This document shows, in pieces, positions 9,391 to 51,067 of a stretch of DNA of 64,000 bases. The number at the start of each line of letters is the position of its first letter. The first letter of the stretch is position 1. The notes beneath the pieces were generated by a model. The model was not told where the DNA came from, made no database searches, and worked only from the letters and a program-made list of their open reading frames with translations. Position numbers and translations under genes: made by a program. The DNA comes from Polytrichum commune (lineage: Eukaryota; Streptophyta; Polytrichopsida; Polytrichales; Polytrichaceae), in the NCBI GenBank assembly GCA_950295325.1, contig OX485804.1:65696033-65760032 (forward strand), read 5' to 3'.

Positions 9391-9765
9391 CTACACTAAA
9401 TATGATATTTAGTGTCACCAATTCTAATTGCCTTGCTCCATACTAATTGTAAACCACATTATAGTGTCACCAACACTGAATGTTAATTCAGCATTATTTG
9501 TCATTCCTTGTAAATTTTTTGGGGGACTATAGATTTACAGTGTTGCAATTACTATCACTTACCAAGTGATTTTCATCCAAATTTCAATCATCCATGACAA
9601 TATTTCATCACAAGTTGCTGACAAGAGAAGGTAGGGTTTTGGCCAATTGAAGCATTCATCCATCATCCATGACAATACTTGTAAGCTATTTATAAGAAGT
9701 ATCATCCAAAAAGTTACCATAGGACATAAAATATCATATGACACTAAATATCATATTTAGTGTAG
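9391..9765. mobile_element. MITE, family with CTACACTA tips (complete copy)
   Basis: A 375-base element with perfect 26-base terminal inverted repeats beginning CTACACTAAATATGATATTT. It has no coding capacity. Related copies lie at 37764-37946 (reverse, truncated) and at 44844-44874 plus 51068-51426 (split by a retrotransposon). If the true tip is CACTA, each end is flanked by TA, which would fit a TA-targeting transposon; superfamily not settled. Confidence 0.85.
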
Positions 9766-10982
9766 TTATCAATGCTAGTTAATCTAATCTAGTTACACCA
9801 TACTCACAACACAGCATGTCACATACACAGCCGTATATTTGAACTCCAAGTTGCAGTTTCTATGATGTAAGAATCATTTCAATCCCGAGATGGCAGCTAA
9901 TGTTTTCATACTTCCCTAAATTATAATGATTAGATTGAAAGTTTAGCAAAGCCCTATGATAACATAATGTAATTGCACTTAACCTTACTTTCATGAACAA
10001 GTACAATACTCATGAGCACCATATGATCTCTACTTGACAAGCCATATATGTGTTAATTGACAGTTATGCATTATCTGTGAAATTGAATTATTGACACATA
10101 GAATAACACTTGGAAGATCAATCCATATTATTCTGATGTATCATATTAAGTTCTTGCCCCCAACATAGAAAGATGAAAATATCAACACTTCTATGTAAGT
10201 CTATATACAAGTCTGGGTATATGTTATGAAAGAAGACTTCATGAAGATTCTTGTTTATTAATAATAATTAGCTTTAATTAGCCAAGGCACAAAATGAAAT
10301 CCACCCAAATCCGAACAAGTCGAGCTGAGAAAAAATTATCATTTATTTAATTATCATTTAAAAAAAATGCATGATCATTCTTTAGAAAATTAGTCTAACA
10401 ATCATCCTTCGAATGTGGGTATTGCTTGCCTTTTGGTAATGAAATAAAGTCTATCTTCTTCCTTACAAACACTAAAACTATAGCAAGATCTCTCAGGGAC
10501 GCTTTAATTCAAAGTAGTATTTATTATTCGCTAAACACAATATTCAATTGTTAAATAGGCTCCCCATAACTAATTCTGATGTGTTGTATGTGTTCATTCA
10601 TTGATAATAGCTTATACCAACCAAAAAAAAAAAAAAAAAAAAAAAAAACTACAATATAAGTCATCATAACCATTGCACTAATCATTTCTAACTCTATCAT
10701 CCTAACAACACACGTAATTAATTGACACTTAATATACATCCCCACTACCCACCATAATTTCACTCACTCCCAAACACCCAAACATCTCACACTCCCCCCC
10801 CCCCCCCCAAATGACAACATCTCCTCCCATTACATATTTTATCCAATCCCCTATCATTACTCTTGCCCTACCCCCAAACACCTCCCATTTCACTTCACCC
10901 ACCCATTACCAATATTTTACTAATCATTTCATAACACCCTCAACATCTTTTATACCCACAGTGAAACCCATCTACACCCACA
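9766..10982. other. Intergenic DNA; right part is the left half of an older A/C-rich element
   Basis: No gene seen. A run of 26 A residues lies at 10623-10648 and 14 C residues near 10795-10808. From about 10650 to 10982 the + strand is strongly A/C-rich, like the coding strand of the retrotransposon next to it. The stretch ends in TCTACACCCACA (10971-10982), repeated at 24734-24745 on the far side of copy A. It is therefore probably the left part of an older plus-strand element that copy A entered. Confidence 0.5.
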
Positions 10983-11000
10983 AATAGATAGATAGAAACT

Positions 11001-11021
11001 CCGGTCCCTTTTAGGGGCCGG
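11001..11021 (-). other. 3'-terminal hairpin of copy A
   Basis: On the element strand CCGGCCCCT-AAA-AGGGACCGG folds into a 9-bp stem with one mismatch and a 3-base loop. Copy B has the same hairpin at 51024-51044 with three compensatory pair changes. It lies just before the CTAT-repeat tail and is a likely recognition site for the element's own reverse transcriptase (inference). Confidence 0.8.
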
Positions 11022-11228
11022 CGTGAATAGAGTGTCCGTTCGTAATGCCAACAACCCGATGCCCACAGGACATGGGGAAGCTGGGACAAAACTACTCTCC
11101 TCTTTCGAGGATGGACACTATAGTAACCGAGAAACAGTAACCGAGAAACAAATAACATGGGCCGATTATGGCCCACGGAGGTGCATGGCTTTTAAGGATA
11201 ATTAGTGTTTTTGTAATGAGAGTGAACG

Positions 11229-11338
11229 CCAAGTCATGATCCCTCGGTTGGTTGTGGGAGGATGTTTGAGTTAAGACGTTCCGGGTTCGATTCCAGTTGA
11301 GTTCGTATGATCGTCTAAAATGTAACACATGACTTGGT
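11229..11338 (+). other. tRNA-like / SINE-like insert in the 3' UTR of copy A
   Basis: Contains GGGTTCGATTCC, a good match to a polymerase III B box, about 60 bases after CTCGGTTGGTT, a possible A box. The segment is bounded by the inverted repeat CCAAGTCATG...CATGACTTGG. The 3' UTR of copy A is about 190 bases longer than that of copy B between stop and hairpin, which fits an insertion here. No target duplication was found, and the T stem pairs poorly, so it is not called a tRNA gene. Confidence 0.4.
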
Positions 11339-11453
11339 GCTATAAGTGAATAAAAGGCAGGAAATTTGTACCAACCAACCGGCACCAGTCCCTCATTTTG
11401 AGTTGTAAGTAGATACTAGATATTATATAAGATATTATATAAGTTTTTGGGTT

Positions 11454-14408
11454 TTATGGAGGGTTTAAGTTTTGGGGGAGCGGTTGGTGGTTTTCAAGTC
11501 TCCTCTTATGTAGGAGGATGGACATGGCATATTGTATTGCAATAGTATTAATGTTTTTAAAGGTATTTTTGATGGTAACCATGGGTATTTTGAGATTTTC
11601 TTCTAGTATTTTCATGGATGGGATGTGGGCCGTAGCTCGGGCCCCAGCTGTGAGGACAATAAGTGGTTCGATTTTCCATCCTCTAGAAGCGATACTATCA
11701 ATCAGTGGTTTGTATTTGTTGTTTTTTGCTTCTATATTTTCTGGGGAAAATTTGTCGTTACAATATGTGAATTCGATAAATTGTATGGTGAGGTTAGGGT
11801 CAACGTCGATGGGAGGGTCATTTTGATATGGTAATCCTTTGACGCATAGTATGTCAGGGCGAAACCTTGCATTGCAATGACATCTTTGTGTGTTACATGC
11901 ACAAGGGAGTAGCCAATTGGGGACAGTATTTTCTTGGGGATTATTATTGAAGGTACCGGCATTCATGAGGGTAAAACATCGGGATTTTTCGGACAAGATT
12001 AGGAGCTTCCTAATTTCTCCAACTGCTTTGTTATGTCTTTTAACTCGTAGTGAGTGTATATGTTGTTGGTTACATTTCAGCAGTACATGTAGCCAAGTGT
12101 CTGGATCGTTTGAATTGCATATGGGACACGTGATAGAGGGGTACCTCTGGTGACCGAAAAACATTTGTTTTCTAGCATTACCCATGTATGTTCCTGTGCG
12201 GAATTTAATAAGGCATGATTTTTGTTTGTCTGTGATTAAGGGATTTGTCCAGAATTCGTTGGACAATTCTTTGTCAATGTCTATATTTTCTGTCCATTTA
12301 CACGTGTTGGGGGTTTGTGTGGCCATGACTGCTATATTGGTTTCCCTGTCATATTTTTTAATTTGTTTTTCTAAGAATCTTACTGGGCCTTTGTCTGGGA
12401 CTTCTTCCATTGAGGCCCAGACGTCCTTTTGATAATAGTATGGGGTGGCGTGGGCATGTTCGTATGGGTGTATGGCGATTCTGTGTTCTAATTCTAACCC
12501 GTCTTTTGCTAGTTTATCCGCTTTTTCATTACCGTCAATGTTGACGTGTGCTCTGACTTTGTATAATGTGATAGGCTGTGTACGGTCTTGGAGGATTTTT
12601 ACCATGGAGTTGAGTGTGATTTGGTCTGGGTGATTATTATGGAGAGTGGGGTGTTTAATTTGTGTGTTGAGTAGATATAGTACGTTTAGACTGTCTGTGA
12701 ATATAAATGCAGGTTCATTAGGGAATTGTGTATTGATGATTCTTAGTGTTTTGTGTATAGCCATCATTTCTGCACGTAGTATATTTTGATGCCCATGGAG
12801 TCTTTTGGCGATATTTAAGCCTTTGGGGCTAAAGATACCGTATCCAGCTCTTTCTCTTCTCCATACTCCAGGGGCAATTTCTTTGGGTTTTATAAAGGAT
12901 CCATCTGTGTAGTAGCTAAATTGGGGGTGGAATTTTAGTGGTAAGTTGGTTTGGTAGTTTGGGAGTTGTGGGGTGGGGTTATTATTGTATAGGGGTGTGT
13001 TTGGGTAGTTTGTTTTAGCCCATTTTTTACTAGGGTTAACGGTGATGTTCGGAGGGGTGGGTGGTGCAATTTGAGTGTGGCTTTGTAATATTTGGAGGTT
13101 ATTTGCTGTGTCGTGTATTAGCTTCATTTGTTCGTAGGTACCTATGTTATTATTTTGGTGATGGATACAGAATATTTGCATGGTAGATGGTTCTTTCCTT
13201 GTAGTATTGAGTTCGGGGGGTATTGTTGGTTCTTCGTATGTGATTGTGTCAGTAGCAAAATGGGCAATGACATGTGTGTCTGGGAATGGGCCTATGTGTG
13301 GGTTCGAGTTTTGGTACCAGTCAGTGTCTGGGGATATAATTATAGTGATTGTGTAAGGGTCATTTTGGGCCGCCATGCGTGCCCAGTGAATGGCTTGTTG
13401 TAGGTCTCTTGAGGTGTGAGGATGTGCGTATCCAATTCCTTGCCATTTATAGTCAAACACTTTTCCTAAGGATCCGAATATTATGTCTCGTGAGAAGGGT
13501 GAGTAGAATTGGGTGAAATGTGTAGGACATGTAACTGGGGATGAAAAGTATGAGTGGGTAATATTGAATGTTGTAATTAGTAGATCCAGTATTTGAGTTG
13601 GTATTGTATATTGGGCTCTTTTGAGTGGGTCGTTTTTTGGGATACGGTATTTGTATCTTTGGTATAGCCAGATAATTTCAGTTTCGAATGATTGGGTAGA
13701 TGGTTCTAGACCATGTGTGGTATTTTTTGCCAATTGGTATTGTTTCCATAGCCATGTTAGTCTAGCTTTCGGGATAGTGATGAGATGCCTTCCATTGTCT
13801 TCGTATATGTGGGCGACATCGAATTGTGTTTGGATAGTATCAGAATTTGTTTCAATGTCGTTTTCTGGGTTGCATTCACTAATAGAGATATGTGCTAGTG
13901 GAATTATTGTGGATGGTGTGACGTATCTTGTGTCTCGGTGTTGTTCCGTGGTGAAGTAAGCGTTAATGATGTTTGAAAAATGATTGTGTTGTCTTTCTGT
14001 GTAATATTGGATAAGCAGGTTTGTGTTGTGATTGCATATGTTGGCTTCACAGTAGGGGTATAGGTCCCTTTGGGTTCGCCATTTATTATATGTGTTGTTA
14101 TTTGTTGTGGTCCATTGACACATATATGACGTAACTGTTCTTTTTATTCCATTGTGGTCGTTAGTTTGTTTTTGTTTGTGATCGAGTATTTTGTGTATGG
14201 GGAATTGTCTGGGGTCTTTAAACATGTTGTTGGGGGGAGGAGGTAGATGGGGGATGGGGGGGTTAGGGGGGTGTACGGGGGCGGTCGGTGTGTGAGGTAG
14301 GATGTTGTGATTTCTTATTATATATTTGTTTTTGAGGGATCTTGGTGGGTGGTGTTGTTGGCAGGATAGGGGGCATTGATTGCAGGGGGGGGTGGTAGAA
14401 TAGTTCAT
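11454..14408 (-). pseudogene. Copy A ORF2, fourth segment: RNase H, zinc finger and restriction-like endonuclease
   Basis: 984 open codons, intact to the stop at 11454. RNase H residues are in place: D502 (TDGS), E547 (RAEM), D572 (FTDS) and H621...D631 (AH...GNEKAD). A zinc finger follows: C761-x2-C764-x9-H774-x4-C779, then RHN (791-793), the layout found before the restriction-like endonuclease of R2-type elements. A Cys cluster (836, 838, 843, 845) leads into R850-P851-D852, E879, and K895...K898-Y899, matching the PD-(D/E)-K core; the 16-residue E-to-K spacing is close to that in R2. RNase H would remove template RNA, and RLE would be a second DNA-cutting activity beside APE. The frame upstream is joined to RT in copy B, so this is probably the end of ORF2 and not a separate gene. 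Confidence 0.85.
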
Positions 14409-17236
14409 TAGCTATGTTAAGTGCGCTTTGGATAAGTTTAGAAGGAGTGGAGTGGTAGATTTTGAATTCGTCCTTGTTCATCAGAGTGGTACCATTAGGC
14501 AGGGTAATTTGGTCTAGTGTGATTATATTATATATAAGTAATTTGTGTAGTAGTTCAAATGAGGTGTTGGGGTTTAGGCCATGTAGCATTTGTGCTTCTT
14601 GCATCCATGCAGTTTCAAGTGAGGATGGGGTTAGTAGAAAGTTATTTATTGTGCTTTTTAGATGGACTCCGGCTTTATGTTTTAGCATGAACAATGTTCT
14701 AGTGATGGGTGATCTAACACAGTGGTGGTATTTGATGCGAGTGATTTCTTGAGAGCCCCCATGTGTGGCGAGTATGAATTGTACTAGACCGGTATATATT
14801 CTTCCAATTCTCCCTTTGTCATTGAGGGCATTTTGTAATTGTTCTCCAATGCACCTTAGATAGGCATTTTGTAATGAAAATGCTTCAATTCCAAATAGGT
14901 TGTGGGGAGTTGCGTGGCAATATTAGATGTGCATTTAGGTATTCCGCATATTGTTTTATGGAGTGCGATGATTTTTTTGTCTAGTTTTTTTATGGCTGGT
15001 ATGGAATATGGTACTGCATAAAAACTATATGTTATTCCAGCACGTATGACTGTGTCTGCCATGTTGATTTTTTGTTTCATAGTAGCTGGGCAAGCTACGA
15101 GGGCTTGACATTGTTTGATTACTTTAGCTGTGGTGGTATTTATTTGTGTTTTCCATTTGAGTGATGGTGCAAGATTTATTCCTAGATATGTATAGGGTTC
15201 ATGTTGGTTTAGGACTGGTATAGGTTGGTTTCTATAGTTTATGTTAGTGGATTAGATTAGGGCCTTGAAGGTTGTGGGGTTAAGTTTGGATTTGTTTGGG
15301 CATCCAGTCACTGCACATTTTGGTATACCTAGGTCCATTCCTGCCCATTCACAGAATTTGTCTAATTTGTTTAATTGTGTTTGTAATGCTTCTAGTTTGT
15401 TGGCTATTGCTGCAAGATCGTCTGCATATACTGCTGATGAGATTTTCACTCTAGACGTACCGAAGGTATATTCATTATTTCCTTGTTGCAGCCATCTAAG
15501 TAGGGGTTCCAAGAATATGATAAATAGATATGGGGTAAGGGTATCGCCTTGTATTGTACCTCTTTGGATGTGGATTCGTAGAGTTTTCCCGAAGTGTTCG
15601 CCGGTAAATATGGTTGATGATTGTGAGTATATGTTTCCTATGAGGTTTATGGAGTCATTGGGATAACCCAGGTCTTTCATTATGGCTAATAGTCTGGCGT
15701 GGTCAATGGAGCCAAAGGCGTTTTTGAAGTCAATATAAAGAATGTATATGTCTTGGTTTGTGAGTCTGGCGTCTTCAAGTGCTGCAATTAGTATTTGGAT
15801 TTGTCTGAAGGTGTTTCTTTCTGCTCTGAACCCTTCTTGGCTATCGTGTAGTATTTTGTATCTTTCTCCGTATGCTGATATGATAGAGGTTAGTGTGCTT
15901 GTGTATAATTTATATATAGTGTTAGCTAGTGCATTAGGTTTGTGATTTGTTAGTTGTGATGGGTTACCTTTTTTATATAGTAAAATTGTTAGGCTAGTTT
16001 TCTATGATGTTGGGATTTGTTTTTGTTTATAGCAGTGTTTAAATAATAGAAACAACATTTTGTGAAAGCGTGGAGGCATATTTTTTAGAATTGAGTTGGG
16101 AATTTTGTTTGGGCCTGGGACTTTATTATTACTTAGGTATTTAAGACAGAAGTTGTATGTTTTTTTATCAAGGTATGTGTGCAAGGGGATTTGGGGTTCT
16201 CTTCGTCTGTCGATTGTATATCCATCTAAGTCGTGCCAAGGGTATTGCCTTACTCCACATGTACAGTGAATTGGATGTGTATTTTGATGGTGGCATGTGG
16301 GGACTGTTGGGCGGTTACTGATGGATTGTTGTGCGTAAATCTCTGAAGCAATGTCTTCAGGGTTGGTTAATATGTTGTTTTATCTATCAATGATGGAGTC
16401 AAGAGGTGAGGTTTCAGTGTTCTTGAAGACTTTCCAATTTATTTTCTTGGGGTTTTTTTCATACATTTGACGGTATTTTGATACGGCTTTTAGGATGCAG
16501 TCTCTGGTGTATTTTGTGGTAATTTTTCTGGCTTGTTTATTTGCCGTTTTTGCGATAGTTGCTATGGTGTCAATCCATTCGACATGAGATGTTGTTGTAG
16601 TAGGTGGGTGCGGGGTGTTGACGTGTTGGTGGTTTCGGATATCATTTAGGATGGGGTGTACTTGCCAGCTTGGATCATTTTGTACAATGTAAATGGTTTT
16701 CCTGATGAGGTGATATGTGTTGAGGTGTCTTTTTCATTCTCTAGCTAGTTTACGTGGTAAAAAACCACCTTGTTTTGATGTTCTGTTTGTGAGGTTGGGT
16801 AGAGGGTCTGCTTTGCAGGTTTTTTCAATTGTTTCTGAGATTTTGTTTATAATGTATTCTAATGATGTGCAGGCATTTTGCCATTGATCAGGTGTTAAGT
16901 ATTGGTTGTCTTCTAATAGTGTGGTGAGTTCTTTAAGTTGGGTGGAGTTTTCTTCGAAGAATGTTATGTTAAAATTTTCTAGGTTTTCCGGTGGTATCGG
17001 GTTCAGTATCCTAGTTGGTGTGGTGTTTGTAGAGGGCGGAGGTTTAGCTATAAGTGTGTTGTGTGGGATGTGTAATGTGACTGGGTAGTGATCTGAATTT
17101 AGATTCATGTTTGTGTTTGTAGTGGAGGTAAATTTGCTGTTGTCAAGGGAGTGAATGTAGAAACCATCTATTAGGCTTGTTGATGTGTAGTTGTAGCCAC
17201 CTTGTCTAGAGATACTAGTGTTGGTAGTGATATATT
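14263..17236 (-). pseudogene. Copy A ORF2, third segment: reverse transcriptase, broken
   Basis: Homologous fragments in several frames. The SDH end of the APE domain is at about 17108. An N-terminal RT segment with PGPNKIPNSIL lies at 16002-16184. The palm is at 15252-15680, with RGTIQGDTLTPYLF and the catalytic YADD at 15417-15428. Thumb and connection pieces follow at 14856-15080 and 14263-14694. At least three frame changes or stops separate them. Near 14385 a run of eight C residues on the coding strand, against seven pyrimidine-run bases in copy B, explains one shift. Copy B supplies the same order of domains and confirms the reading. Confidence 0.8.
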
Positions 17237-19918
17237 CTAAGTCGAGAGATGTGGTAAATTTTTTCCATTGGAAGTCCTCTTCTTGTGGGGGGTAGTAGTG
17301 TTGTTATTTTGTTTGCCCCTAAGTGCAATATCTCTGTTAAAGTCACCGCACAGTGTGTATATGTGATTGGGGTGTCTAGTGATTTGTTTAGTGATTTCAT
17401 TCTTAAGGTGTGGGATAAGACATGTGTCTTTTGGGTGCATAGGCATATACATGTGTATAATTAGCCAAGGTGTTAGTGGGTGGTTGTTTATTTTTATTAC
17501 TTGTAGGTACGGGGAGATGTTTGCTGGAGTGGGAATTTTGGTGACATTTCCCGGGAATGCATATTTGTGATGGATAAGTGTGAGTAGGCCACCTCTTTCG
17601 GGGGTATAGGGCATTCTTTGTTGGATGCACCTCGTGAGTGCGTGTGTGTTGTTGAAAGTGAGTTTGAATTCCGGAAATAAGTTTTGTATATATTTAGTAG
17701 ATTTGTTTGCAGTGAGTTTGGTTTCTTGGATATGAATGATTGCTGTGTTATTTAGAGAGTTGTTGATTAAGTCTTGTAAGGTTGGTAGTGATGTGTTGAG
17801 CGATGACGCATTCCAAGTTATTTTGTTTGTTTCGTGCTCGGTGTTAGAGTTCATTCTTGTGATTGGTGTGGGAGCGGCCGGGAGTGGGGGTGGGTGTGAG
17901 TATTCGCTTATATTTTCTAAACATCTAAGTGTTTCGGTTATTAACTGGTTTGGAAGGAAGGGGAATTCTTTCTTGAGGGTGATTGGTGTGGGTGTGGTGG
18001 CTTGGTTGTGGATGAAATCGTATATTTTGGTGTGTATTGAGTTTTGGAGGAGTATTATATGTTGATTGTTTTCTATGAATATTGTGTAGGGGTGCGGTGT
18101 CAGTATGTGACTTTCGGGGGGGTTGGTGAGGTTAGATAGTCTAATAATTAGTGTGTTGGTCCATATGTCGTTAAAGTGGTAGTTTTGGGGTTGGGCTAGT
18201 ATACTATTGCATGTGTCTATTGAGGGGTGGATGGTGATGACTATAGCATATAGCATATGGGTTGGTGGTGATTGCCTTTGTGTTTGGATGTTTTGGTGTA
18301 GATGTGGGTGGGTAATTATTGCTTGATGGTATAGAGGGTGTGTATTTCTTAGTATGGGAGCAAATGTATTTGCTATGTGTTGGTATTCGGGTTGTAGTTT
18401 GATAGTGTTTGGAATGAAGTATATCTTGGCTCTTTTTTTGTGTGTAGCAGGATGCGTATGTAGGATGTTAGGCATTGGTCCGGGGTTGGATTCTATGTCT
18501 CCGCATTTTAGTAATTCTAGTTTGTTAATGAAGTAGTATCCGTGGAAGTGAATTATTTTGGGGTTTTTCATGTTTGTTTTTAGATATATTGTGATTGTAC
18601 ATTTGGTTGTGGAAAATAGGTTAGGTATAGCGGGTATGGTTTTTTCTATTTGTATGGGTGAGAAGTGTGGTTTCGTATTATTTGTAGATTTATGGCTTGT
18701 TATTGAGTTAGGTTTCCAATTATTTATGAAGTGGTATTTGTTATTCTTTGTGTGGCGAGGCCGGTAGGCCGCGGCCATTGTGTTTTTTGGGTGGGGTTGG
18801 TATTTTATATGAGGGCTTAATAGGTGTTTGATTTTGTTATGGTGTTCGAATCTAGGGTAGGGTTTATTTTTGGAGCATTTGTTTTGTAGGTGTGCTTTGG
18901 TATTTGTTGAGAGGTGAGGTTGGTATGTTGAGGTTGCTTTGTTTTTCGGGTTGAATTTTTGTTTAATATGTATATTTAGTTTTGGGTAGGGGTGGTTTTT
19001 GGGGAATGGTTTGTGGTTTTGGTGGGTGTTGTATTTAGTTGTTAGGTGTGTATGGGAGTTGTCTTGGAGTACGTGTTTTGTAGTTGTGCTTGGTTTCCAT
19101 TTGGTTGTGATAGGGTTTGGTTTGTGGTGAAGATGGTAGGTCACGGTCATTTCGTAGTTTTGACATAATTTGTTTTTCAAGTGGAGGTTGGGTTTGGAGC
19201 TAGGGTATGGTGTGCTTTTTGAGCTTAGGTTGGGATGTATTTTAGATAGTGGATGGGGCTCTAGGTTAGGTTGGTTTTCTTGCTTTGGGTGGGTATTATG
19301 TTTTGGGCATTGTTGTGGATGCACTTTGTTTTTTAGGTAGAGTTTAACTTTTGAGTGTGTTCTATATTTCGGATGAAGTTTATTATTTGGATGAGAGATG
19401 TGTCTTAGATGGAGTCTATGTTTTGGATGAGGTATGTATTGTGGGTGAAGTTGGGGGTGTTTGTGGTTTGGGGATAGTTTGGTTTTTGGATGAAGTTTGT
19501 GTTTTAGGTGGACTTTGTAATTTGGGTGTAGCTTGTTTCTTGGATGGAGATTGTGCTTTAAGTGGGGACTATATCTTATGTGAGGGTAGTATATTGGGTG
19601 GGGCCGTGGTGGTTTTTGTTTTGGGTGGGTATGTTGTTGTGGGGGGGATGTTGTATTTCTTAGTTGATTGGGTGGAGGGTAATTGATTAGGTTAGGGTAG
19701 GTTCCTAGTTCATAATGTGGGTTATGTTTTGGATGAGATATGTATTTTGGGTAGTTTATGTATTTTGGATGGGATCCGTGTCTTGGATGAAGGAGGTGCC
19801 TTGGATGTGGTATGAATTTTGAGTATTTAACGGAGTCCGGGTTGTGTATTATGTTATTTGATTGTTTAGGTGTGAGGGAGGGATTTAGTTTTGAGTACGT
19901 CCTTTGTTTAGGATGCAA
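17237..19918 (-). pseudogene. Copy A ORF2, second segment: repeat region, 2A motif and APE endonuclease
   Basis: An open stretch of 893 codons. Codons 1-440 continue the low-complexity basic region with HPKHKL-type six-residue repeats. Codons 473-481 read GDIESNPGP, the conserved 2A ribosome-skipping core. After it, about codons 690-880 form an APE-type endonuclease: WNASSLNT, QETKL with the catalytic Glu near 732, the GGLL strand, and CGDFN near 857-861. The frame is lost at 17237, before the C-terminal SDH motif, which reappears in another frame at about 17100. APE makes the target-DNA nick that primes reverse transcription in most LINEs. The frameshift makes this copy defective. Confidence 0.8.
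18476..18541 (-). other. 2A ribosome-skipping motif
   Basis: Encodes GYYFINKLELL followed by KCGDIESNPGP. This matches the D-x-E-x-N-P-G-P consensus of 2A peptides, with the hydrophobic stretch upstream that the family needs. Skipping would separate Gly (codon at 18479-18481) from Pro (18476-18478). 2A-like motifs are known in trypanosome and some animal non-LTR elements, usually near the start of the enzyme ORF. Here it sits between the repeat region and the APE domain, so it would release the enzyme part from the basic repeat part. Confidence 0.85.
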
Positions 19919-19919
19919 C

Positions 19920-21286
19920 TTATATTTTAGATGTGGTTTGGATGTAAGATGAAGTTTGTTTGTTGGTATGGTGAAGGTATCTTTGATTTGGATGCATGAT
20001 GAAGGTATCTTTGGTTTGTTCTTGTTTGATTTGTGGTATTTGTTTGGTGTGTATTTTGTTATAGGGGGGGGTGATGGGTGGGGTGGGTATAATGTTTTTT
20101 AGTTGTTTAGGTATGGATTGTAATTTTGTATGTTTGCTTGTAGTTAGGTTAGTTCCCCAATATTGTGTAAAGTTATTTTTGTATTTAGTTTTATGGCGAG
20201 GCCAGTAGGCCGAGGCCATTTTATTTTTTGGGTATTTGTAATTTGAGTGGTAGTTTGGTGTTGAGAACGGTAGTTTATTAGGTATGGGTTGTGTTTTGTA
20301 TGTTGGGTGGGGTTTGTATTTTTGGTGGAGTTTATATGTTTGGTGGGGATTATATTTTGGGTGTAATATGTATTTTGTGTGGGGTTTGTATTTTGGGTGT
20401 GTATATTGTTTCGTTTGAGTTCTGTCTTTGTGCATGTGTAAAGTAAAGTGATTGTATTTATATTTCATATGGTATTTTGGCCGTCGTATGGTATCATGGC
20501 TAGTATGATGGTATCTTTTATTATAGAGTACGGACTTTGTTGTAGGCGTGTGTATGATGTTTGGGTATGGTCGGGTTTTAGTCTTATTTATTCTTTGGTT
20601 TTTTATGATCATGTTTTTGTTTATAGTGAAAGGGTTAGTTTTGGCGGGTGTTATGCTTTTTATTTGTTTGAGTAGGGAGTATGTGTATTTTGGATTAATT
20701 GTATGGTATTTGTATTTTGTTTGAGTATAATGTTTTGTTTGGGTGTTGTATTTTGCTTGAGTATAACATTTTTCTTGAGCATGGCATTTTGCTTGAGTAT
20801 GGTATTTTGTTTGAGTATGATGTGTTGCTTGGGTGTGGCATTTTGTTTGAGTATGGTATTTTGCTTGAGTACGGTATTTTTTTTGGGTATGATATTTTGC
20901 TTGGGTATGGTATTTTGCTTGAGTATAGTATTTTGCTTGAGTATAGTATTTTGTTTGAGTATGGCATTTTGCTTGAGTATGGTTTTTTGCTTGAGTATGA
21001 TATTTTGTTTGTGTATGGTATTTTGTATGGTATTTTGCTTGGATATGGTATTTTTCTTGAGTATGGAGTTTGTTTTCGTATAAAGTAGATAACTTGTATT
21101 TCATATGGTATTTTGGACATTGTGGGATACTATGAGTAGTACGATGGTATCTAGTATTTATTCTAGGTGAAATAGTATATAGAATACTATGTTTAATACT
21201 ATGTTTAATACTATGTCTACATATGTGTATGTATCTAAGATAGTATTGAAGTAAATACTTTTGTTTTACCCGGCGATTTGTGGTCA
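19920..21286 (-). pseudogene. Copy A ORF2, first segment: His/Lys/Thr/Gln repeat region
   Basis: An open frame of about 455 codons directly after ORF1, with no clear ATG at its head. It is dominated by six-residue repeats of the KYHTQA type from an 18-base DNA repeat, then HPKYK-type repeats. It ends with an MASAYWPRH block that has a partner (MAAAYRPRH) in the next segment. A stop at 19920 is followed, one base further and in another frame, by the next long open segment, so the two were probably one frame separated by a small indel. No enzyme domain is visible. Its high positive charge suggests nucleic-acid binding (inference). Confidence 0.6.
20700..21070 (-). repeat. 18-bp tandem repeat inside the retrotransposon
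   Basis: About 20 units of 18 bases; on the coding strand the unit is close to ATACCATACTCAAGCAAA. Because 18 is a multiple of three and no unit forms a stop, the array is open in several frames on both strands, which explains overlapping open frames there. Neighbouring units alternate between a few variants. Confidence 0.9.
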
Positions 21287-23041
21287 ATCCACATTTGGCA
21301 GGTCTTTGATCATAAGATTTGGATTTACCAACCCAGTAATTTGTTGCATCCCGGTAAGTGCCATGATTAATGTGCTTTGGATGTCCAACATTTGCTTCTT
21401 CAATTTTTCGTTGATGTCATCTACATAGTTGTGGGCCTCTTTGACTATGTCATCCTTCAAGACCTTCATCTCTTCGTGTAGTTCAAGCTTGAGTTTCTTG
21501 TTGCCTTCTTCAATGGCCTCCTTCATGATGGAAAAAACTTCACTTTTGGTGGCATTCTTCTCCCCTTGGTTTTGGTTTTGGATTGCTTCAATGGTGTTCA
21601 CCAAGCAAGTGTTAGTATCCTCAAATCCAAACTTGATCAACAAATCTTTGGAGGGTTTGTCAATACCATCAAGACTTCTACGGTGTGGAGTGATTTCCAC
21701 ATGATAAACACCAATTTTTTCCTCTTTTCCTACAAACTTTTTGTATACAAAGGGGTTGAGGCATTCAACATTTGCACTACCATTGTGTCTAATTCCATCT
21801 TGCTTATGGAACCAAATGGAGACAACATTCTTGGTTCCAATTATCTTGCAAATTTCAAGAGATGTGTCATCAATGCTCATCAAGATGGGAAGGTTGTAGA
21901 GGGTGAGAGTTAGAGCTTCTTTCCTTTGTTTTTGCTCCAAGGTGAGAGAAGGCCCTTTCTTCACTTGTCCTTCCAAAATTTCATGGTGTGTTGCAACTTG
22001 AAGTTCTTGAATTTTCTTGGCTTGTGCGGGGGTCGGTGCAACAATGTAAGCATGGTTGTTGGAAGTGCCCTTTTGCACCTCTACAATCTCAAATTCATAA
22101 CCTCTCCTAAAGCTATTCTCTAGAACATCTTTGAAGAGCATGTGTGAAGAGACATCAATCAAAGTTTCACTAGTGATTTTGATTGAGAGGTTGTTGTTCC
22201 TAGCTATGGAGTGGTAAGTCTTACATACCTTTCCAAGAGTACCTTGGGTTGATTTGGGGTCCAATTGTAGTATGAATGGTCTAAGTCCTTTCAACAAGGC
22301 CACACCATCAATTTCGGGGTGAAGAAGGTGGAGTTTGGCAATACCCGCCCAAACTCCTTTCTCTCCACCTCTCTTGACACTCATGCACATAATAGATATG
22401 GGCTCAATAAGGTTAGTACCAAGTGGTATTTGCATCAACTCAAGTCTTTTCCTTACTAGTTCTTTCACATGGTTATGGAGGAGAGGGGTGTTGGGTAGTT
22501 GAAATTCAATAGCAACATGGAAGTCCAAAGAGAGACATGTATTGGGATCGATTGGGATATCATATGGAATTTGTGTTAGGTTGAGGTGTTGTCCAAGGAC
22601 ACCATCCTCCCTCTTACCTGGGTAATAGATTTGGGGTATCCTTGGGAAGGATATTGTGACCCCTTCCATCTCTTCCGCTTCCTTCCTTGGTACACCCCTA
22701 AGTACCCTATCTTCAATGGATTCACCATCAAAGAGCTCTTCCAACCCCTCTTCCATAGCCAATTTCTCCATGTTAGTGAAATCATACCAAAAATTTTGAC
22801 GGAACCTTCGTTCCGAGAAAATGGAATTTACCTGTGTGGCTTGTGGGCGTCGTTGTGGAGTTTGGTGTAGAGACTTGTTCGGTGTTGTCTTCTCCCGGGT
22901 CCTCTTGGTGCCTATTTCCTTCGCAGCTTGATTCTCCTTTGCCTTCTCCGCTAGGAGCCGCATGAGGTTTTGTGTGGGTGAGTCTACCTCCATGTTGTCC
23001 TCGTCGCCAAGGCCTACTCGGTATGTGGAAGGTGACGCCAT
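21284..23041 (-). CDS. Copy A ORF1: RRM-like, coiled-coil RNA-binding protein
   Basis: 585 residues from the ATG at 23041 (MASPSTYR...), the first in-frame ATG of a longer open frame. About residues 375-460 look like an RNA-recognition motif: an LTLYNLP strand (RNP2-like) followed by helix, IVSIWF-type strand and closing strands. About 500-560 is a heptad-rich Lys/Glu helix likely to form a coiled coil, as in multimeric ORF1 proteins of LINEs. The middle part (about residues 150-330) has no family I recognise. The role expected from position is binding element RNA to form the transposition particle (inference). The stop codon overlaps the next open frame by a few bases. It is intact, unlike the RT region. 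Confidence 0.75.
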   Translation of the reverse strand: MASPSTYRVGLGDEDNMEVDSPTQNLMRLLAEKAKENQAAKEIGTKRTREKTTPNKSLHQTPQRRPQATQVNSIFSERRFRQNFWYDFTNMEKLAMEEGLEELFDGESIEDRVLRGVPRKEAEEMEGVTISFPRIPQIYYPGKREDGVLGQHLNLTQIPYDIPIDPNTCLSLDFHVAIEFQLPNTPLLHNHVKELVRKRLELMQIPLGTNLIEPISIMCMSVKRGGEKGVWAGIAKLHLLHPEIDGVALLKGLRPFILQLDPKSTQGTLGKVCKTYHSIARNNNLSIKITSETLIDVSSHMLFKDVLENSFRRGYEFEIVEVQKGTSNNHAYIVAPTPAQAKKIQELQVATHHEILEGQVKKGPSLTLEQKQRKEALTLTLYNLPILMSIDDTSLEICKIIGTKNVVSIWFHKQDGIRHNGSANVECLNPFVYKKFVGKEEKIGVYHVEITPHRRSLDGIDKPSKDLLIKFGFEDTNTCLVNTIEAIQNQNQGEKNATKSEVFSIMKEAIEEGNKKLKLELHEEMKVLKDDIVKEAHNYVDDINEKLKKQMLDIQSTLIMALTGMQQITGLVNPNLMIKDLPNVD

Positions 23042-24733
23042 GCACTGGTTGGTGTCTCGGTGGGGGGAGGCTACAAGAATTTCGGCACTCTCACAGGTAC
23101 AATTCAATAGTGAATATGTGAGGATGCAAAAAACAAAGAGAAAAAGATTGACGGAAGGAGTGGGTGTGTCCAGGAGCTTACCTAACTCCTTGCGACGTGG
23201 TGTAGCATAGGGAGGGGACTTACCTGAGTGTGGTGCAGTATTTGGTGTAGGGTATCCTGAATTCGGAGCTGGGTCTGCTAGCCGACTAGTGTTGGAATTC
23301 GGTGCGGTGGTGTCAGCTGCTCTTGAAATTGGTGCGGCTTCTGCAGCTTCATTCGAGGTTGCAACTTCTTTTGAATAAAGTCTGGAGCTGTTGTTGTGTT
23401 GCCACGCCTTCGAACCTGCTTCTGCGGCATTTGAAGTTATGCTCTCCGCATTCGGGGCGGTGTCTACTACTGGTTGTGGACGTAATTGTGGGATGTTTGG
23501 CTGCGGTGCGATGTCTATCGCATGTGCTTGGACCTGGTGCTTGAGTTTGTTGTAGGTTGGTGTTGTGCTTGATTTCGTTGCGGCAGCGGCAGCTAAACCT
23601 GTGTTCGTTGTTAATTCCTCCCTTGAAACTTTGTTTACAGCTGGGCTTGTGTTCGACCCAGTTGTGCGCCTGTAGCTGATCTGAAGTTTGATTTGGCTAT
23701 TGCGGCAGAGCAACACCAACTTCGGTGGTGTGGTGTCTGCGTGACTGCAGCTGGTTTGGATTGTTGTTTGGCTACAACGGCGGACCAACACCAATTTCAG
23801 TGGTGTGGTGTCTGCGTGACTGCAGCAAGGTTGGATCTGGCTATCTCGGCAGAGCAACACCACTTTCGGTGTTGTGGTGACTGTATGCGCTGAGTTTACA
23901 TCCTCCGCGTACGGTGCGGTGCTTGCAGCTGTGTTCGGAGTTTCGGTTCGATGTTCGAATTCGGTACAGTCTGGCGCCGTGTCTAAGTGTGGTGCAGCGT
24001 CGATTGGTGTAGTGTTGGCCTCTGGGCTTGGGTGCGACTCAGAATCTTGTTGTTGGCAGCACACGGCTTCGATCTGATTGCGGAAGGTCTCGATTCCGAT
24101 CTGATGGGTCTTCTTCAGAATGTGGCTGTGGTGGCGCTCGATCTTGGTGAGTCCGCTCCGGTGGTCACTGTTAGTCCGCTTCGGTGGCGATGTGAGTCTG
24201 CTTCGGTGGCACTGCGAGTCCGCTTCGGTGGTTTCTCTGTCTGCGCCGGGTGGAGTGGTTGTTGATGTTGGGATGAGGGCTTTGGTTGGCAGTGGTTGTG
24301 CAACCTTGGGTTGGAGGTATACCTCCTTTCGGTGATCTATTCTGGCCCACGGTGGTGAAGCGTCGCTGCTGAGTTCAGCCGGTGGGGAATCCACCGGTGT
24401 TGGGTCTGTGTCGATGATGTGATTTTGAGATGCTCGGTGGGGAGGAGCTCGTGTGCGCTTCCGCACGTTGTAGTTCGAGCAGCCGGTGGGCGGCGATGAT
24501 CGGTGGTTCACAGATCCAGGGGAATGTGTTCTCCTATTGCGGGCCTCCAGTTGCCTCAGTATTAGGTATCCGCAATTCCAACACTTTTTAGGAGCAACTA
24601 GGTCCGGACATGTCTGTCTGGATCCATTCCCTTCAGATCTGTGCCTCACTTTCCATTACTGCCCCCTACTCCTCGAGCTCTCCTGTGCTTCGACGGCACT
24701 GAGCCCCCACACCGAGCGCTAGAGCTTACGCTT
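23042..24733 (-). other. 5' leader of copy A, open but without ATG
   Basis: From the 5' end of the element to the first ATG of ORF1. The ORF1 frame stays open from 24649, 536 codons upstream of that ATG, yet I find no in-frame methionine there. It holds short tandem repeats: three units of about 66-69 bases at 23690-23885 and several TCCGCTTCGGTGG-like units at 24160-24230. G+C is higher than in ORF2. It probably contains the internal promoter; translation from a non-AUG start cannot be excluded. Confidence 0.6.
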
Positions 24734-24745
24734 TCTACACCCACA

Positions 24746-25640
24746 CCACAGCCCATGCACCCACTCAATACATTCAACCTTCAACTAGTTCTCCTACCTC
24801 TCCCCCACACTTCGACCCCTACCTATATGAATTGCTATAATTCCCTTCTTCCTCACACTCTATTCATCTAAATTTGTCATCCCCTACTCCTTATCATCTC
24901 GAGGGGGGGGGGTAGTCATTGGTTGGAGTAGCAATATACGTGCGAACAAATGATAGGGTATTTTTAAAACATGGGGACAATAAATAAATAAATAAATAAA
25001 TAAATATATATAAATGAACTTAAGAGTAATATAGGGTATCAAAAATGGCACTGGACATCTTTCAAGTACTATAGGGTATGGAATAATAGGTAATTTGGAA
25101 TTATAAGTAATGCAAGCCATTTTTCTATTAACCCAAAGTAGAAAATTACATAATGATAGCATGTGAAAAAAAATTGAAAGTAATACCCCCCTATAAAATA
25201 GTGGTTGTTCGCACCTATATCCTTAACTTTTTAACACACTGACCCCCCCGAGCTTATCATTCATCTACCCTTCATATGTACTACATAGAAAATCCCACGA
25301 AGAAATTTGTTTTATATATGGGAGATATTACATCCTTATTGACTCTCGCCGGGGACATAGAAATAAACATGGGGCCCTATCCACAAGCACATCATGCAAC
25401 ACTTACCACACGCTTTCATCACCCGTCAAACCCAATACTTCCTCTCAAATAAAACAACTCTCAAACCTAAAAATACCTCACCACAATCCCATCATCTCTT
25501 CTACACCTTTGCCACACCTCCCCTCCCCCCCCCCTCATCCACGACCATCCGCCCATACTCCAACCCCTCGCAAAACTATTAATGGACAATAGAGCCCATT
25601 GCACCATTCCCTCTACTCATAATCCCCCGTCTCTGAGGGA
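24746..25640 (+). mobile_element. Right part of an older A/C-rich element with a degraded 2A-like motif
   Basis: The + strand here is A/C-rich like the coding strand of copy A but in opposite orientation. At 25336-25377 it encodes LLTLA followed by GDIEINMGP, which differs from the 2A consensus in the Asn-Pro step. The residues before it line up with those before the 2A of copy A. Stops interrupt the frame. Copy A entered this element (target duplication at 24734-24745) and a MITE entered it at 24898-25252. No APE or RT follows. Confidence 0.6.
24898..25252. mobile_element. hAT-like MITE, copy 1 (8-bp target duplication)
   Basis: 355 bases with tips CTCGAGGGGGGG and CCCCCCCGAG, flanked by CTTATCAT (24890-24897 and 25253-25260). 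A subterminal inverted motif GTGCGAACAA lies about 40 bases from each end. It carries an AAAT microsatellite not found in copy 2. There is no coding capacity. Eight-base duplications fit the hAT superfamily, although the tip differs from the usual CAGGG. Confidence 0.9.
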
Positions 25641-25966: not shown

Positions 25967-28900
25967 TCACTCACACTCTACAACACCAATCAGTCCAAGT
26001 AGCCGCATAGCCTTGTTGTAGGTAAAGTGAACAAACTTGCCATTGTCGTAATCCACCTTGCATAGAAATCTAAACACAAAAATAAAGATGTTTGCAATAC
26101 AACCAGTTAACTCGGGGGGGGGGGGTAGTCATTGGTTGGAGTAGCAATATACGTGCGAACAAATGATAGGGTATTTTAAAAACATGAGGGCAAAAAATTA
26201 TAAATGGACTTAAGAGTAATATAGGGTATCAAAAGTGGCACTGGACATCTTTAAAGTACTCAAGAAAGTACTATAGGGTATGGAATAATAGGTAATTTGG
26301 AATTATAAGTAATGCAATCCATTTTTCTATCAACCCAAAGTAGAAAATTGCATAATGATAGCATGTGAAAAAAAAAGAATTGAAAGTAATACCCCCCTAT
26401 AAAATAGTGGTTGTTCGCACCTATATCCTTAACTTTTTAACACACTGCCCCCCCCCCCCCGAGCCAGTTAATTCTTTTTCCAAAGCATGAGATGGTATTT
26501 TCTTGAAGTTCGAACATGTGCAATGCAAGATGTTGTTAATAATGACACAATATGCAATGTTCTCATTGGAGATAATGTTGATTAGTACTCCAAACTCTGG
26601 ATATGGAACGACAATGATTCCAACCACATAATGATTGTCCATGAGTCCAACACTATTCAATTTGTTTTTGTGATCCACTGTTGGTAATGTTGGATTGCAA
26701 CGCATTGTCTTTCCGAACCTAGAAGTTCAGTGGGCATTTGGATTCGCTGGCACACAAAAATGTGACCAAAGGTTGGGGAAGGTTACAATTGTTGAAAACC
26801 TTCAATGAGGTGAAAATACCTCCCTCTGTTGTAGTTGAAATCCAATGCCTCAAGCGTCAACACATCCTCCCTAGTTAGATTGGTATTAATCTTAATTGGC
26901 CATGTGTTGCGTACTATAGACCACTCTAACATGTTTTTTTTTTTGGCTCCCACTCACACAACGATTGATATCATTAGGGCAAAACCAACATCATATTCCA
27001 CATTGTTGGTGGAACAAAATTCATTTTTCAACCCTTTGTAAGTGGGAGTCGCAGTGTCATACTCGGTAGCTCCGACTTGGCATTGCACAAAATCCATGTA
27101 TCAATTTGCATCCCCCAACATCTTTTCATGGTATTGGGTGGCAATCATGCAATGTGCCACTAGGAAGCAAGACAATCAGTCTTTAACATTGATATTGTGT
27201 AAGCCTCACCATGCTCTACAAAATTCAATGATTTTTCTGTGCATGATATTCTTGCCTTACTATTAGGGCAAGGAATGGGGTAGTTTACTTTATCAGGTTG
27301 ATGAGACTCTCAATCGGCACTTGGTGGCAAATCAAACTTCCGTTTTGTGGACCCAAGCAACTCCGACCTTTCCAAGGTTCAATCCCTTATGCTAAGATCT
27401 TTAGCCTTTGGATATGATTTCAGGACATATGCCAACAACTTGGGGTCTTCATACCTAGTAGCATCCTTCAATTTCAAAGATGTAGAAACCATGCCTTTAC
27501 CATGAGAACCACCTTTCTACCACGATTTGTAATTTGCAATCTACATGAATGCATAAATCGTCCATTGTTGCGTTGTACAAACAAGTCATCTTGTTACCAT
27601 GTTGTTGGAGCCACTTGTTGTGCACCGTTTCTGCAATATCACCTATGGACATTTTGCACGTTCATCCACAGTCATATCTTATAAACATTACATAAATTAT
27701 AGTAGATTATATATATACACACACACATACATAATGGATATTGGATAATGAAAATTATAGGACATTGCCGAATATAGTGTTGGTAAGGCACCAACCAAAA
27801 TCATATGACCACCCCATTGCATGTAACGGAAGTGTTAGAATCCCAACCACTCGGAGAGTCCAAAAATGGTTTTTTTCCAATAGCTCGTGATGACAACCAC
27901 AATGAACAAACCACATGATATTTATTCTTGGCTTTGTCAAAAAAAATTGCATTCTTATAGTTTTTGCTTGCAAAACTGCTTATACTAAAACTGCAAAGAA
28001 GCTTTGATATACTTTTGTGTCACATTTTCCAAACTTGCAAATAAATGGAAAAAACATGTGTGTTCACAACCCAACACTAGTAGATTTGGGTCACCCTGCT
28101 TGTAGATATTTTTTACTACAGTCCAATTGGCTTGAGCACTTTCCAGCATGAAACTTTTGAAGTTAGCATTTGGCACTTTGTTCTCCACCACAATTAAATT
28201 CAAGTTTGTTCACAAGAGGTTAATATATGTTGCACCATCCTCACAATGCATGTCCCAACATGTCATTGTCAAGACCTTACAATACTTATTATTGTACACA
28301 TGGCACGCCATAGTAGTTTAATCCGTCACATCTTACATGATCAAACATTATCTATGAATTTTCCATATCCCCACCGAATTGCATACGCTTTACAAAATTC
28401 ACATCACTCCTTAAAAGGTCCACTGACATTTTAAAGACAAACATTTCTTCTTTGAATTGCCTTAGAAACATGCTTCCATCGACGTACTTGAATCCCAAAT
28501 GGTCCTTTAGCACCATAATATTATTCATATACTTATTCCAATACGCACAAAATGCTTCAAACTGGAAACAAAATTATGACAATTTGGGGAGGCAAGAGTA
28601 GTAAATTTATCCATAATCACCTCTAGGGACGAACATGTTAGGTGATGTCCTACATTGTTTGATGATGTTTTTAGGAGGTAGTCTACCAAAAATTGTTGGC
28701 TTGTTGCCATTACAACACATTACAATAGTAGAGTTCTTGGATGTGGGTGTTTTCATAACATTTGTGGCAACACACTAGTAAGTCATATCCAACGATTCAT
28801 TATATGTACCATGGACACAAAGTGTTCATGGACACCAAGATGCATATATCCCCTCATCATCTCATGGGATGTAGAATGGACATATATTATTTGAACATGA

Positions 28901-32584: not shown

Positions 32585-32815
32585 CAAGAGACGGTGTATG
32601 AAAAGCCTCCACCTTTTCGACTAATGAGAGCTCTTACATTGTGTGGTCATGGGCCTTCAGCCTTGTGTGTGAAGTGGCCCTTAATCAATTGGTCTCTCAA
32701 CCGTACCGTGAAGCGAACTTGGACCGGCGCCGCCTTCTCCACCAATGAGAGTGCTTGAACTGCGATGGTCGCGGGCCCTCAGCCTCGTGTGTGAAGTTAC
32801 TCTTCTTCTCCTTGC
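32585..32815 (+). promoter_or_regulatory. Duplicated CCAAT-containing upstream element of MPP beta
   Basis: Two tandem units 121 bases apart. The first has CTAATGAGAG at 32621 and the second CCAATGAGAG at 32742. Each is followed by a TGGTC-CGGGCC-like block and TGTGTGAAGT. A weaker third copy lies near 32390-32425. The same arrangement occurs upstream of SPT5 at 53500-53600. The second unit contains a CCAAT box on the gene strand about 220 bases before the start codon. Confidence 0.5.
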
Positions 32816-32960
32816 TTCCGACCTTGATGCTCCTGAGTTAAGGGGCGAGCGATTAGGGTTTGGCTCCCGAGGAGGGAGTGCATGGTTGGTCGCAGGGACA
32901 GTCGTCTCTCACAGAGAGACACAGGGCAGGGACGACATTCACGCACGGATCGCCGAAGCG

Positions 32961-37178: not shown

Positions 37179-37763
37179 GTGATTTGTGGGGTTTCATATT
37201 AGTAGTCTTGTTAATCCGTAAAGGCCAATCTCATTCTTAGATTTGCAGATAAGGATCCAGATACAAATCACTTATGGAAGAGCGCACTTGCTACTTGTTT
37301 CTCTATTCCTGCAGTGATGCCCAACGGCTCTTGTAGGTGGATGGTCCTGTCAGGCACTAGCACTGTTGGTTCAGAGGTTACACATGCTTTCAGGAAGCAT
37401 GTCCATTGTCTTTCACTCCAAATAATTGAAAGTCTACAAATAGGAAGCACATCTGCAGAGAATTATTCCAAGGCTAGTAGGTGCGTCATTGCATCTGTAT
37501 GAATGTCATTGTTGCAGATGTCACTATCAACTACTATTTGCATTTCAAGTATGACTGCTTTGTGTAGATGCCAAGCCCTTCACTATATCAAAAATAAAAT
37601 GAATTAGCATATAGTTTTGCAGGTTGGAGCAAAGATAAGGTTTATTGTGAGGGTGGCCACCGTTGTCAGTCCCATGTTAAATGCCCGAACCTTTAACTTG
37701 TCAAGACAACCTGCAAACCTGCAAATCTGCTCATGCTACTGTACTCCTCACAACAGGCATAAA
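37179..37763 (+). other. 3' flank of MPP beta
   Basis: Probably the 3' UTR and downstream DNA. Frames here have no domain. AATAAA occurs at 37593-37598. Confidence 0.4.
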
Positions 37764-37946
37764 CTACACTAAATATGATGTTTAGTGTCATATGTTATGT
37801 TATGTCACTATGGTAAGTTTTTGGATGACACTTCTTATGAATAAGTGAACAAATGTTGTCATGGATGATGGATGATGGCCAAAACCCTACCTCTCTTGTC
37901 AGCAACTTGTCATGAAATATTGTCATGGATGATTGAAATTTGGATG
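37764..37946. mobile_element. Truncated MITE of the CTACACTA family
   Basis: Starts CTACACTAAATATGATGTTT and follows the reverse complement of the element at 9391-9765 for about 183 bases, up to GATTGAAATTTGGATG, where similarity stops. The other end is missing. Confidence 0.75.
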
Positions 37947-44874: not shown

Positions 44875-45133
44875 ACCACATCCATATCCTATGCGGCGAC
44901 TTTAACCGAAACATTGCACTTATTGGAAGACAAAATAACCACAATAATACGCCACCACAAGAAGAAGACATTCAATGGAAAAACTTCACCACAACCCTCA
45001 ATCTAGAATATATCCCAACAAACACTAACATTTCAAGACAAGGAGGCTAAATTACACATCAACTAGCCTTATAGATGGCTTTTATATCAACTAACCAGAC
45101 AACAACAGATTTACTTCCACAACAAACACAACC

Positions 45134-50783: not shown

Positions 50784-51023
50784 ATAAAGCCATAAAACTT
50801 TAACAACTAAGCCACTCCACCCCACCCACTAACAATGCACTAGAGACCTGGCGACCTAAATCATACTAACAATCCCCCCTAATAACTAACCATTTTGGTT
50901 ATTGTTACTAGTGACTGGTGACTATAGTGTCTACTCTCGAAAGGGAGGAGTAGATCTTCACCTCCATACCTTTGTCCTGTGGGCATTGGATTGGAGGAGG
51001 ATCGAACAGACACTTCATTCACG

Positions 51024-51044
51024 TCGGTCTCCTCCGGAGACCGA
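51024..51044 (+). other. 3'-terminal hairpin of copy B
   Basis: TCGGTCTCC-TCC-GGAGACCGA, a perfect 9-bp stem with a 3-base loop, 23 bases before the end of the element. It is the counterpart of 11001-11021, with three pairs changed on both sides. Confidence 0.8.
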
Positions 51045-51067
51045 AGTTTTTCTTCTTTTTCTTCTTC

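Follow-up and report, generated by a model that had tools for sequence, protein, structure and literature searches.

A 64,000-nt stretch of the genome of the moss Polytrichum commune (contig OX485804.1, positions 65,696,033 to 65,760,032; hereafter the window) raises the question of what kind of retrotransposon combines two different endonucleases in a land plant. The element concerned, element A, is a decayed full-length non-long-terminal-repeat (non-LTR) retrotransposon of 13,751 bp on the minus strand. The 12-bp sequence TCTACACCCACA is present at both 10971–10982, at the 3′ end of the element, and 24734–24745, at its 5′ end. Because these target-site duplications enclose exactly the stretch 10983–24733, we took this stretch to be the element, as had an earlier reading made from the sequence alone (hereafter the sequence-only reading). 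We conclude, with a probability of about 0.8, that the element is a recently active, Dualen/RandI-type non-LTR retrotransposon that encodes both an apurinic/apyrimidinic endonuclease-like domain (APE) and a restriction-like endonuclease (RLE).

On the minus strand, element A comprises a series of open pieces: open reading frame 1 (ORF1; 24655–21287), a leader and the APE in two pieces (20098–17240 and 17303–16737), a reverse transcriptase (RT) core (16001–15255), and a last piece of 985 codons (14411–11457). The 984-codon segment of the sequence-only reading is the minus-strand ORF at 11454–14408. ORF1 is open over 1123 codons; its C-terminal half and the ORF1 of an intact copy share 37% identity, and a Pfam scan of ORF1 gave no match. 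The modules that follow are ordered leader, 2A, pre-APE module, APE, RT, chromodomain-like module, PCIF1-like module, RNase H, and zinc finger plus RLE. The leader (18503–20098) is rich in His, Pro and Asn and is followed by the 2A/StopGo motif GDIESNPGP, in the context KLELLKC (18476–18502). A conserved module without an assigned fold and the N-terminal part of the APE occupy 17240–18475, and the C-terminal part of the APE, containing SLIDG and SDHYP, lies in a different frame (16737–17303). The RT core contains YADD and matched RVT_1 at 2.8e-25. The chromodomain-like module, which has moderate support, was placed at 13949–14219 by aligning copy A with the intact copy that had been modelled. 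The PCIF1-like methyltransferase module (13152–13736), in which HPH stands instead of NPPF, matched PF12237 (PCIF1_WW) at 7.1e-12, and RNase H (12495–12917) matched PF00075 at 7.2e-13. Finally, a CCHC zinc finger and the RLE (11457–12128) precede a 3′ stem-loop (10996–11034) and a CTAT-repeat tail (10983–10995). Copy A was judged to be decayed because frame changes and in-frame stops interrupt its coding sequence. An 18-bp tandem array of ∼20 copies (20712–21066), open in several frames, lengthens copy A between ORF1 and the leader–APE frame. GC skew on the plus strand was 0.36–0.70 per 2 kb across 12001–22000, the coding strand being G-poor and rich in A and C.

We then considered the two endonucleases. 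The sequence-only reading had placed an APE domain before the RT. The APE motifs WNASS, QETK, YMP, GDFNRD and SDH are present in copy A, split by a frame change near 17240–17303, and Pfam detected no APE domain in copy A or in the unbroken relative L016. In L015, the other unbroken relative scanned, the domain was detected at 1.3e-5 (25.5 bits against a cut-off of 24.5). The motifs are conserved across five aligned rows, of which that of copy A stops before SDH. Together, the Pfam match in L015 and the motif alignment place the APE upstream of the RT. According to Pfam, RNase H is encoded in the same ORF as the RT; the model and motifs described below place the RLE downstream of the RT in that ORF. 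A zinc finger and an R-PD...E...K-NN-KY core had also been reported after RNase H, and we located this core at 11867–11703. The C-terminal motifs CPIC...H...C, KRHNKAV, R/K-PD, E and K...KY are ones that we take to resemble those of R2.

Assignment of the RLE required a fold search because sequence and profile searches gave nothing at E ≤ 10. The AlphaFold model of the region had a mean pLDDT of 60, with core blocks of 66–90. All six Foldseek hits at E ≤ 0.001 were R2 proteins. In VIA, the seven best rows were likewise R2 (Z 8.2–9.1, rmsd 3.9–8.5, 146–177 residues aligned), followed by bunyavirus-type cap-snatching endonucleases at Z 7.6 and below. A sequence profile match of the C-terminus to RLE, for which the sequence-only reading had asked, was not obtained in these searches; the C-terminus nevertheless models as an R2-type RLE fold.

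The RT also points away from L1. In searches of the PDB, the element RT matched R2 at 4.6e-31 (Bombyx R2 at 8e-20) and LINE-1 ORF2 at 2.8e-17. The RT of a host L1 showed the reverse, matching LINE-1 ORF2 at 4.1e-48 and R2 at 3.9e-16. In a ten-row RT tree, the element, host L1 and R2 formed separate groups (supports of 100/99, 100/100 and 100/99, respectively); in this unrooted tree, which contains no Dualen row, the element RT forms its own group. By the search scores, it is closer to R2 than to L1. The RT phylogeny suggested by the sequence-only reading thus places the element outside the host L1 clade, in a tree from which both RTE and Dualen are absent. The RT of Dualen/RandI is placed between the early RLE clades and the later APE clades.

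These data bear on the possibility that the element is an ordinary plant L1 long interspersed nuclear element (LINE) whose zinc-finger tail resembles an RLE by chance. L1 elements have an APE before the RT and two ORFs; RNase H has been reported from plant L1, as far as excerpts of the literature go, so that the element shares APE, RT, RNase H and a two-ORF organization with them. By contrast, its RT belongs to another group, closer to R2 and outside the host L1 clade, and it carries an RLE that is under purifying selection and whose fold matched only R2 at E ≤ 0.001. Moreover, its copies end in CTAT tails (16 of the 16 further copies described below) and not in poly(A). An L1 identity is highly improbable on these grounds. 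R2 itself is not known to have an APE or RNase H and inserts into rDNA. It shares with the element the zinc finger and RLE, and its RT is the closest in the PDB. The element differs from R2 in possessing RNase H and an APE, such that the RLE is not the sole endonuclease, and in occupying 20 different sites with 11–13-bp duplications.

To characterize the element beyond the window, we searched the 407.8-Mb host genome (64 contigs, seven of them large) for copies. The RLE query yielded 5210 first-look candidates, and an unbroken ORF2 frame of 2625 codons was found in three of the best 150 of these, which were scored; further genomic copies, whose collection the sequence-only reading had advised, were thus obtained. 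The three unbroken copies are on different contigs, and each has both ORF1 (747 codons) and ORF2. They are 99.3–99.6% identical to each other over the aligned parts and have differing target duplications. We infer recent activity from these unbroken, nearly identical copies with different flanks. Twelve loci picked from at least 150 PF12237 matches all aligned to the 2625-codon ORF2, most at 55–66% amino acid identity, indicating that several families coexist in the genome. Diverged families, at ∼60% amino acid identity, keep the same module order. A relative with ∼80% nucleotide identity, copy B, lies within the window on the plus strand (44889–51068, the 3′ end being approximate) and was matched from within the APE onward. 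It retains the order RT, PCIF1-like, RNase H and RLE in broken frames, consistent with the earlier claim that it independently supports the RT–RNase H–RLE order, and its hairpin is a variant one, its tail being of the TTCT type. The skew of copy B is of opposite sign, as expected from its orientation.

A nested or misassembled composite of R2-like and L1-like elements could have produced the broken frames of copy A and its 5′ end, which differs from those of the other copies. Such an artefact is barely conceivable for three copies that lie on different contigs and have one unbroken 2625-codon frame. The order of modules is, moreover, shared by families at ∼60% amino acid identity, and one pair of 12-bp duplications encloses all of element A. 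A nested or chimeric origin was rejected because unbroken copies exist.

Selection on the modules was evaluated using two unbroken families, C1 and L016. The dN/dS values were 0.054 for the RT, 0.057 for RNase H, 0.069 for the APE and 0.079 for the RLE. They were 0.095 for the PCIF1-like module, 0.108 for the 2A segment, 0.147 for the pre-APE module and 0.651 for the leader, and 0.36 for the stretch between the PCIF1-like module and RNase H. The chromo-like stretch had a dN/dS of 0.040 in this pair. Comparison with two distant families, for which dS is near or beyond saturation, gave 0.49 and 0.23. These low values indicate that the enzyme modules, including the unusual ones, have been maintained, and the leader much less so.

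To examine integration, 16 further copies were chosen as probably full-length, each having a 5′ repeat match that could be paired with an RLE match. An 11–13-bp direct repeat was present at the junctions of all 16, and in 20 of 20 copies when A, C1, C2 and C5 were included. The duplications were 12 bp long in 12 copies, 13 bp in seven and 11 bp in one. Among 240 mismatched pairs used as a control, seven reached 11 bp and two reached 12 bp. The junction repeats are thus not attributable to chance, being found in 16/16 copies versus 9/240 mismatched pairs at ≥11 bp. At the first-strand site, the preceding base was a purine and the first duplicated base a T in 20/20 cases; the second was a G in 13/20. 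The T may partly reflect pairing between primer and tail, as the tail often ends in T. CTAT tails were present in 16/16 further copies, and in L022, a diverged relative, a run of T replaces the CTAT-type tail. A simple-pattern scan found a stem-loop before the tail in seven of 15 3′ regions and did not resolve one in the other eight. In the seven hairpins, two of ten pairs were changed on both sides and 92.9% of cells pair, the slid controls being lower. Such covariation is modest, as the same number of pairs was reached in 73 of 500 shuffles. The 5′ ends of three copies (24334–24733 of copy A, L010 and L012) have almost no full-length match elsewhere, whereas the 3′ end has many. Full-length relatives are therefore not findable via the 5′ end alone. 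A unit of ∼100–130 bp recurs near many 5′ ends.

We next compared the element with Dualen/RandI as described in published work, which is cited here and below from excerpts of the papers. Dualen carries both an APE and an RLE, and its position has been taken to indicate that, in the history of LINEs, RLE gave way to APE (PMC4640811). In the excerpted text of a 2015 survey, Dualen/RandI occurs in green algae only (PMC4438587), and LINE/Dualen has been reported from cryptophytes in 2025 (PMC12747079). The plant LINEs listed in the excerpt of a 2022 review are L1 and RTE only (PMC9033089). The 3′ tails of RandI are non-poly(A) in 8/8 families and include (CTATTT)n (PMC3747384). The element thus shares with Dualen/RandI the combination of APE and RLE with RT and RNase H, an RT nearer to R2 than to L1, and a short-repeat, non-poly(A) tail. 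It differs in its land-plant host and in its 2A, PCIF1-like and chromo-like modules. Three features, the 2A motif, the PCIF1-like module without NPPF and the chromo-like fold, are new to Dualen/RandI as far as the excerpted descriptions show. Excerpts of the literature on Dualen, 2A in non-LTR elements, moss LINEs, land-plant RLE and chromodomains in non-LTR elements did not turn up such an element. As Dualen-type elements have been described, in these sources, from algae and other protists, a recently active land-plant lineage would extend their setting.

The novel modules are also consistent with a different history, in which an independent plant lineage gained the APE or the RLE separately and does not descend from an algal Dualen/RandI ancestor. 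They are absent from the excerpted descriptions of Dualen, and the cysteine protease that a 2005 paper is said to report in Chlamydomonas Dualen was not found when the ORF pieces were scanned with Pfam, which could miss a diverged one. By contrast, the shared APE, RT, RNase H and RLE, the R2-leaning RT and the RandI-like tail are most simply explained by common descent, and the host is a green plant, as are the known algal carriers. Overall, we consider a separate origin distinctly unlikely. The proposal of the sequence-only reading, that the element represents a plant lineage of the Dualen/RandI group, is partly supported: the non-L1 RT, the R2-type RLE fold and the RandI-like tail favour it, and no RLE profile match does. 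It thereby withstands most of the refuting test set in that reading. That reading had overlooked the decay of copy A and the unbroken copies elsewhere, as well as the 2A motif and the PCIF1-like and chromodomain-like modules.

The 2A motif was then considered across copies. Copy A and each of the three unbroken copies have KLELLKCGDIE(P/S)NPGP followed by MPN upstream of the APE part, and all four match the 2A/StopGo core (D/G/C/N)(V/I)ExNPGP (PMC12846837). Variants are GDIETNPGP in L015 and GDIKPNPGP, with K for E, in L016 and L018. L017 (68–1780) has two successive 2A-like motifs, a degenerate GDIEPHLGP and then GDIHPNPGP. The pattern GDIExNPGP occurs at 255 sites in the genome; its reversed-pattern control occurs at none. 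On contigs 1 and 2, among the matches listed, 38 of the 62 scored RLE copies have a 2A motif 6.2–8.8 kb upstream on the same strand, and 48 of the 99 2A sites have an RLE or PCIF1 match in range. Putative StopGo skipping at the motif would free the leader from the enzyme chain. The 2A-bearing LINEs named in an excerpt are those of trypanosomes and the purple sea urchin, plus an unlisted range of other species (PMC4981915). L1Tc and other such LINEs share with the element a 2A motif inside the LINE reading frame. They differ in that a reference title in the same source gives the APE type for them (PMC4981915), whereas the element has two endonucleases and is in a plant. A 2026 survey of StopGo, according to its excerpt, found no evidence for its use by plant viruses, did not extend to plant genomes, and cites a separate survey of cellular proteomes (PMC12846837). 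For plants, the element provides a candidate for the natural use of 2A/StopGo.

NPPF is the catalytic motif of PCIF1. In the PCIF1-like module, it was present in 0 of 19 rows, rows covering less than half of the stretch having been left out; in all 19, HPH occupies this position or, in two rows, HPP and, in one, HLH. In searches of the PDB, PCIF1 led weakly (0.12 for a single sequence, 0.0049 for a profile), and the best sequence and structural matches of the module were zebrafish and human PCIF1. The module thus shares PF12237 homology with PCIF1/CAPAM and differs from it in the replaced NPPF and in being embedded between RT and RNase H. A search of the literature on PCIF1 with retrotransposons, transposons or LINEs did not turn up an earlier cap-methyltransferase relative inside a LINE polyprotein. 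One explanation is that the module has cap methyltransferase activity and uses it to mark RNA of the element itself. PF12237 scored above the Pfam cut-off in at least 150 genome matches and the dN/dS is low, as such an enzyme would lead one to expect; loss of NPPF in all 19 rows makes activity quite improbable. Because this motif is missing, binding of RNA or cap is a likelier role for the module than methylation.

The ∼85 residues before the PCIF1-like module were modelled as a small fold (pLDDT block means of 80–88 over model residues 11–80). In VIA, its five best rows were chromo or chromoshadow domains (Z 5.2–6.0, 57–66 residues). When six rows were scanned, Pfam Chromo was matched in one, that of the intact copy, at only 0.073. 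These data lend moderate support to a predicted chromodomain-like module in ORF2.

Several results weigh against a Dualen/RandI-type identity or against parts of it. Membership, while most likely, depends on architecture, RT similarity and the tail, Dualen having been compared by description only. The RT tree has ten rows, is unrooted, and contains no outgroup, RTE or Dualen row. The RLE assignment depends on motifs and on a model with a mean pLDDT of 60, as phmmer and profile searches of the region against the PDB gave no chain at E ≤ 10. The AlphaFold model of the PCIF1 region was poor (pLDDT 48), and Foldseek with it gave no hit at E ≤ 0.001, zebrafish PCIF1 ranking first at 1.1e-3. The Z-scores of the chromo matches are under the level that VIA calls safe. 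Among the matches listed, an exact 2A motif is missing in range from 24 of the 62 scored RLE copies, as is a scored element match from 51 of the 99 2A sites. Finally, C5 fits two 12-bp repeats, of which the one leaving a 12.5-kb element was adopted. The algal protease missing from the Pfam scans belongs with these points.

Given a Dualen/RandI-type element, its replication may be envisaged as follows. A single RNA would carry ORF1 and the long ORF2. At the 2A/StopGo motif observed in ORF2, the ribosome would release the fast-evolving leader, and the freed enzyme chain of ∼2340 residues would begin Pro-Met-Pro and hold the APE, RT, chromodomain-like module, PCIF1-like module, RNase H and RLE. 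This chain would recognize the 3′ hairpin. By analogy with LINE biology, target DNA would be nicked to leave a primer with 5′-(C)A at its end, facing the T of a purine/T step, and target-primed reverse transcription would copy the RNA, starting at its short-repeat tail. The second strand would be cut 11–13 nt away, as the observed duplications suggest. APE and RLE could plausibly cut one strand each, and anchoring to chromatin may be the task of the chromo-like fold. A fuller scheme, for which we know of no parallel, is tentative and, taken whole, unlikely: StopGo would separate an expendable leader from the enzyme, a catalytically dead PCIF1-derived module would hold the element's own capped RNA (cis preference), the chromo-like module would steer the complex to chromatin, and the two endonucleases would each cut one strand with a near-fixed 12-nt stagger. 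The many copies and unbroken ORFs in a plant make the role of the two endonucleases directly testable.

Further scans concerned the distribution of the element and its surroundings. No relative of the element emerged from three viral_contigs scans or from one genome_contigs scan; these collections are viral and prokaryotic, so nothing follows for other plants. PF12237 had no match in 14 control genomes, which probably include no plant, because PsaA/PsaB matched only in a cyanobacterium. Within the window, Rfam gave no match and NCBIfam nothing useful. The plant setting proposed by the sequence-only reading was borne out by plastid PsaA and by ORFs of the window. PsaA, encoded on a 146,561-bp plastid contig, had its best matches in PDB 8htu and 6l35, from the moss Physcomitrium, at about 98% identity as judged by eye, in keeping with a moss-like host. 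By eye, ORFs at 1029–1694, 32712–33584 and 57660–58088 read like an AP2/ERF factor, an exon of mitochondrial processing peptidase beta and an SPT5 KOW exon, respectively. A direct duplication of ∼350 bp (24898–25249 and 26111–26455, spaced 1.2 kb and 85–98% alike per piece) adjoins the 5′ end of element A. A dispersed repeat occurs three times (9410–9682, 37763–37946 and 51068–51427), the last beginning at about the end of copy B, and a 148-bp unit is present in three tandem copies at 54486–54928.

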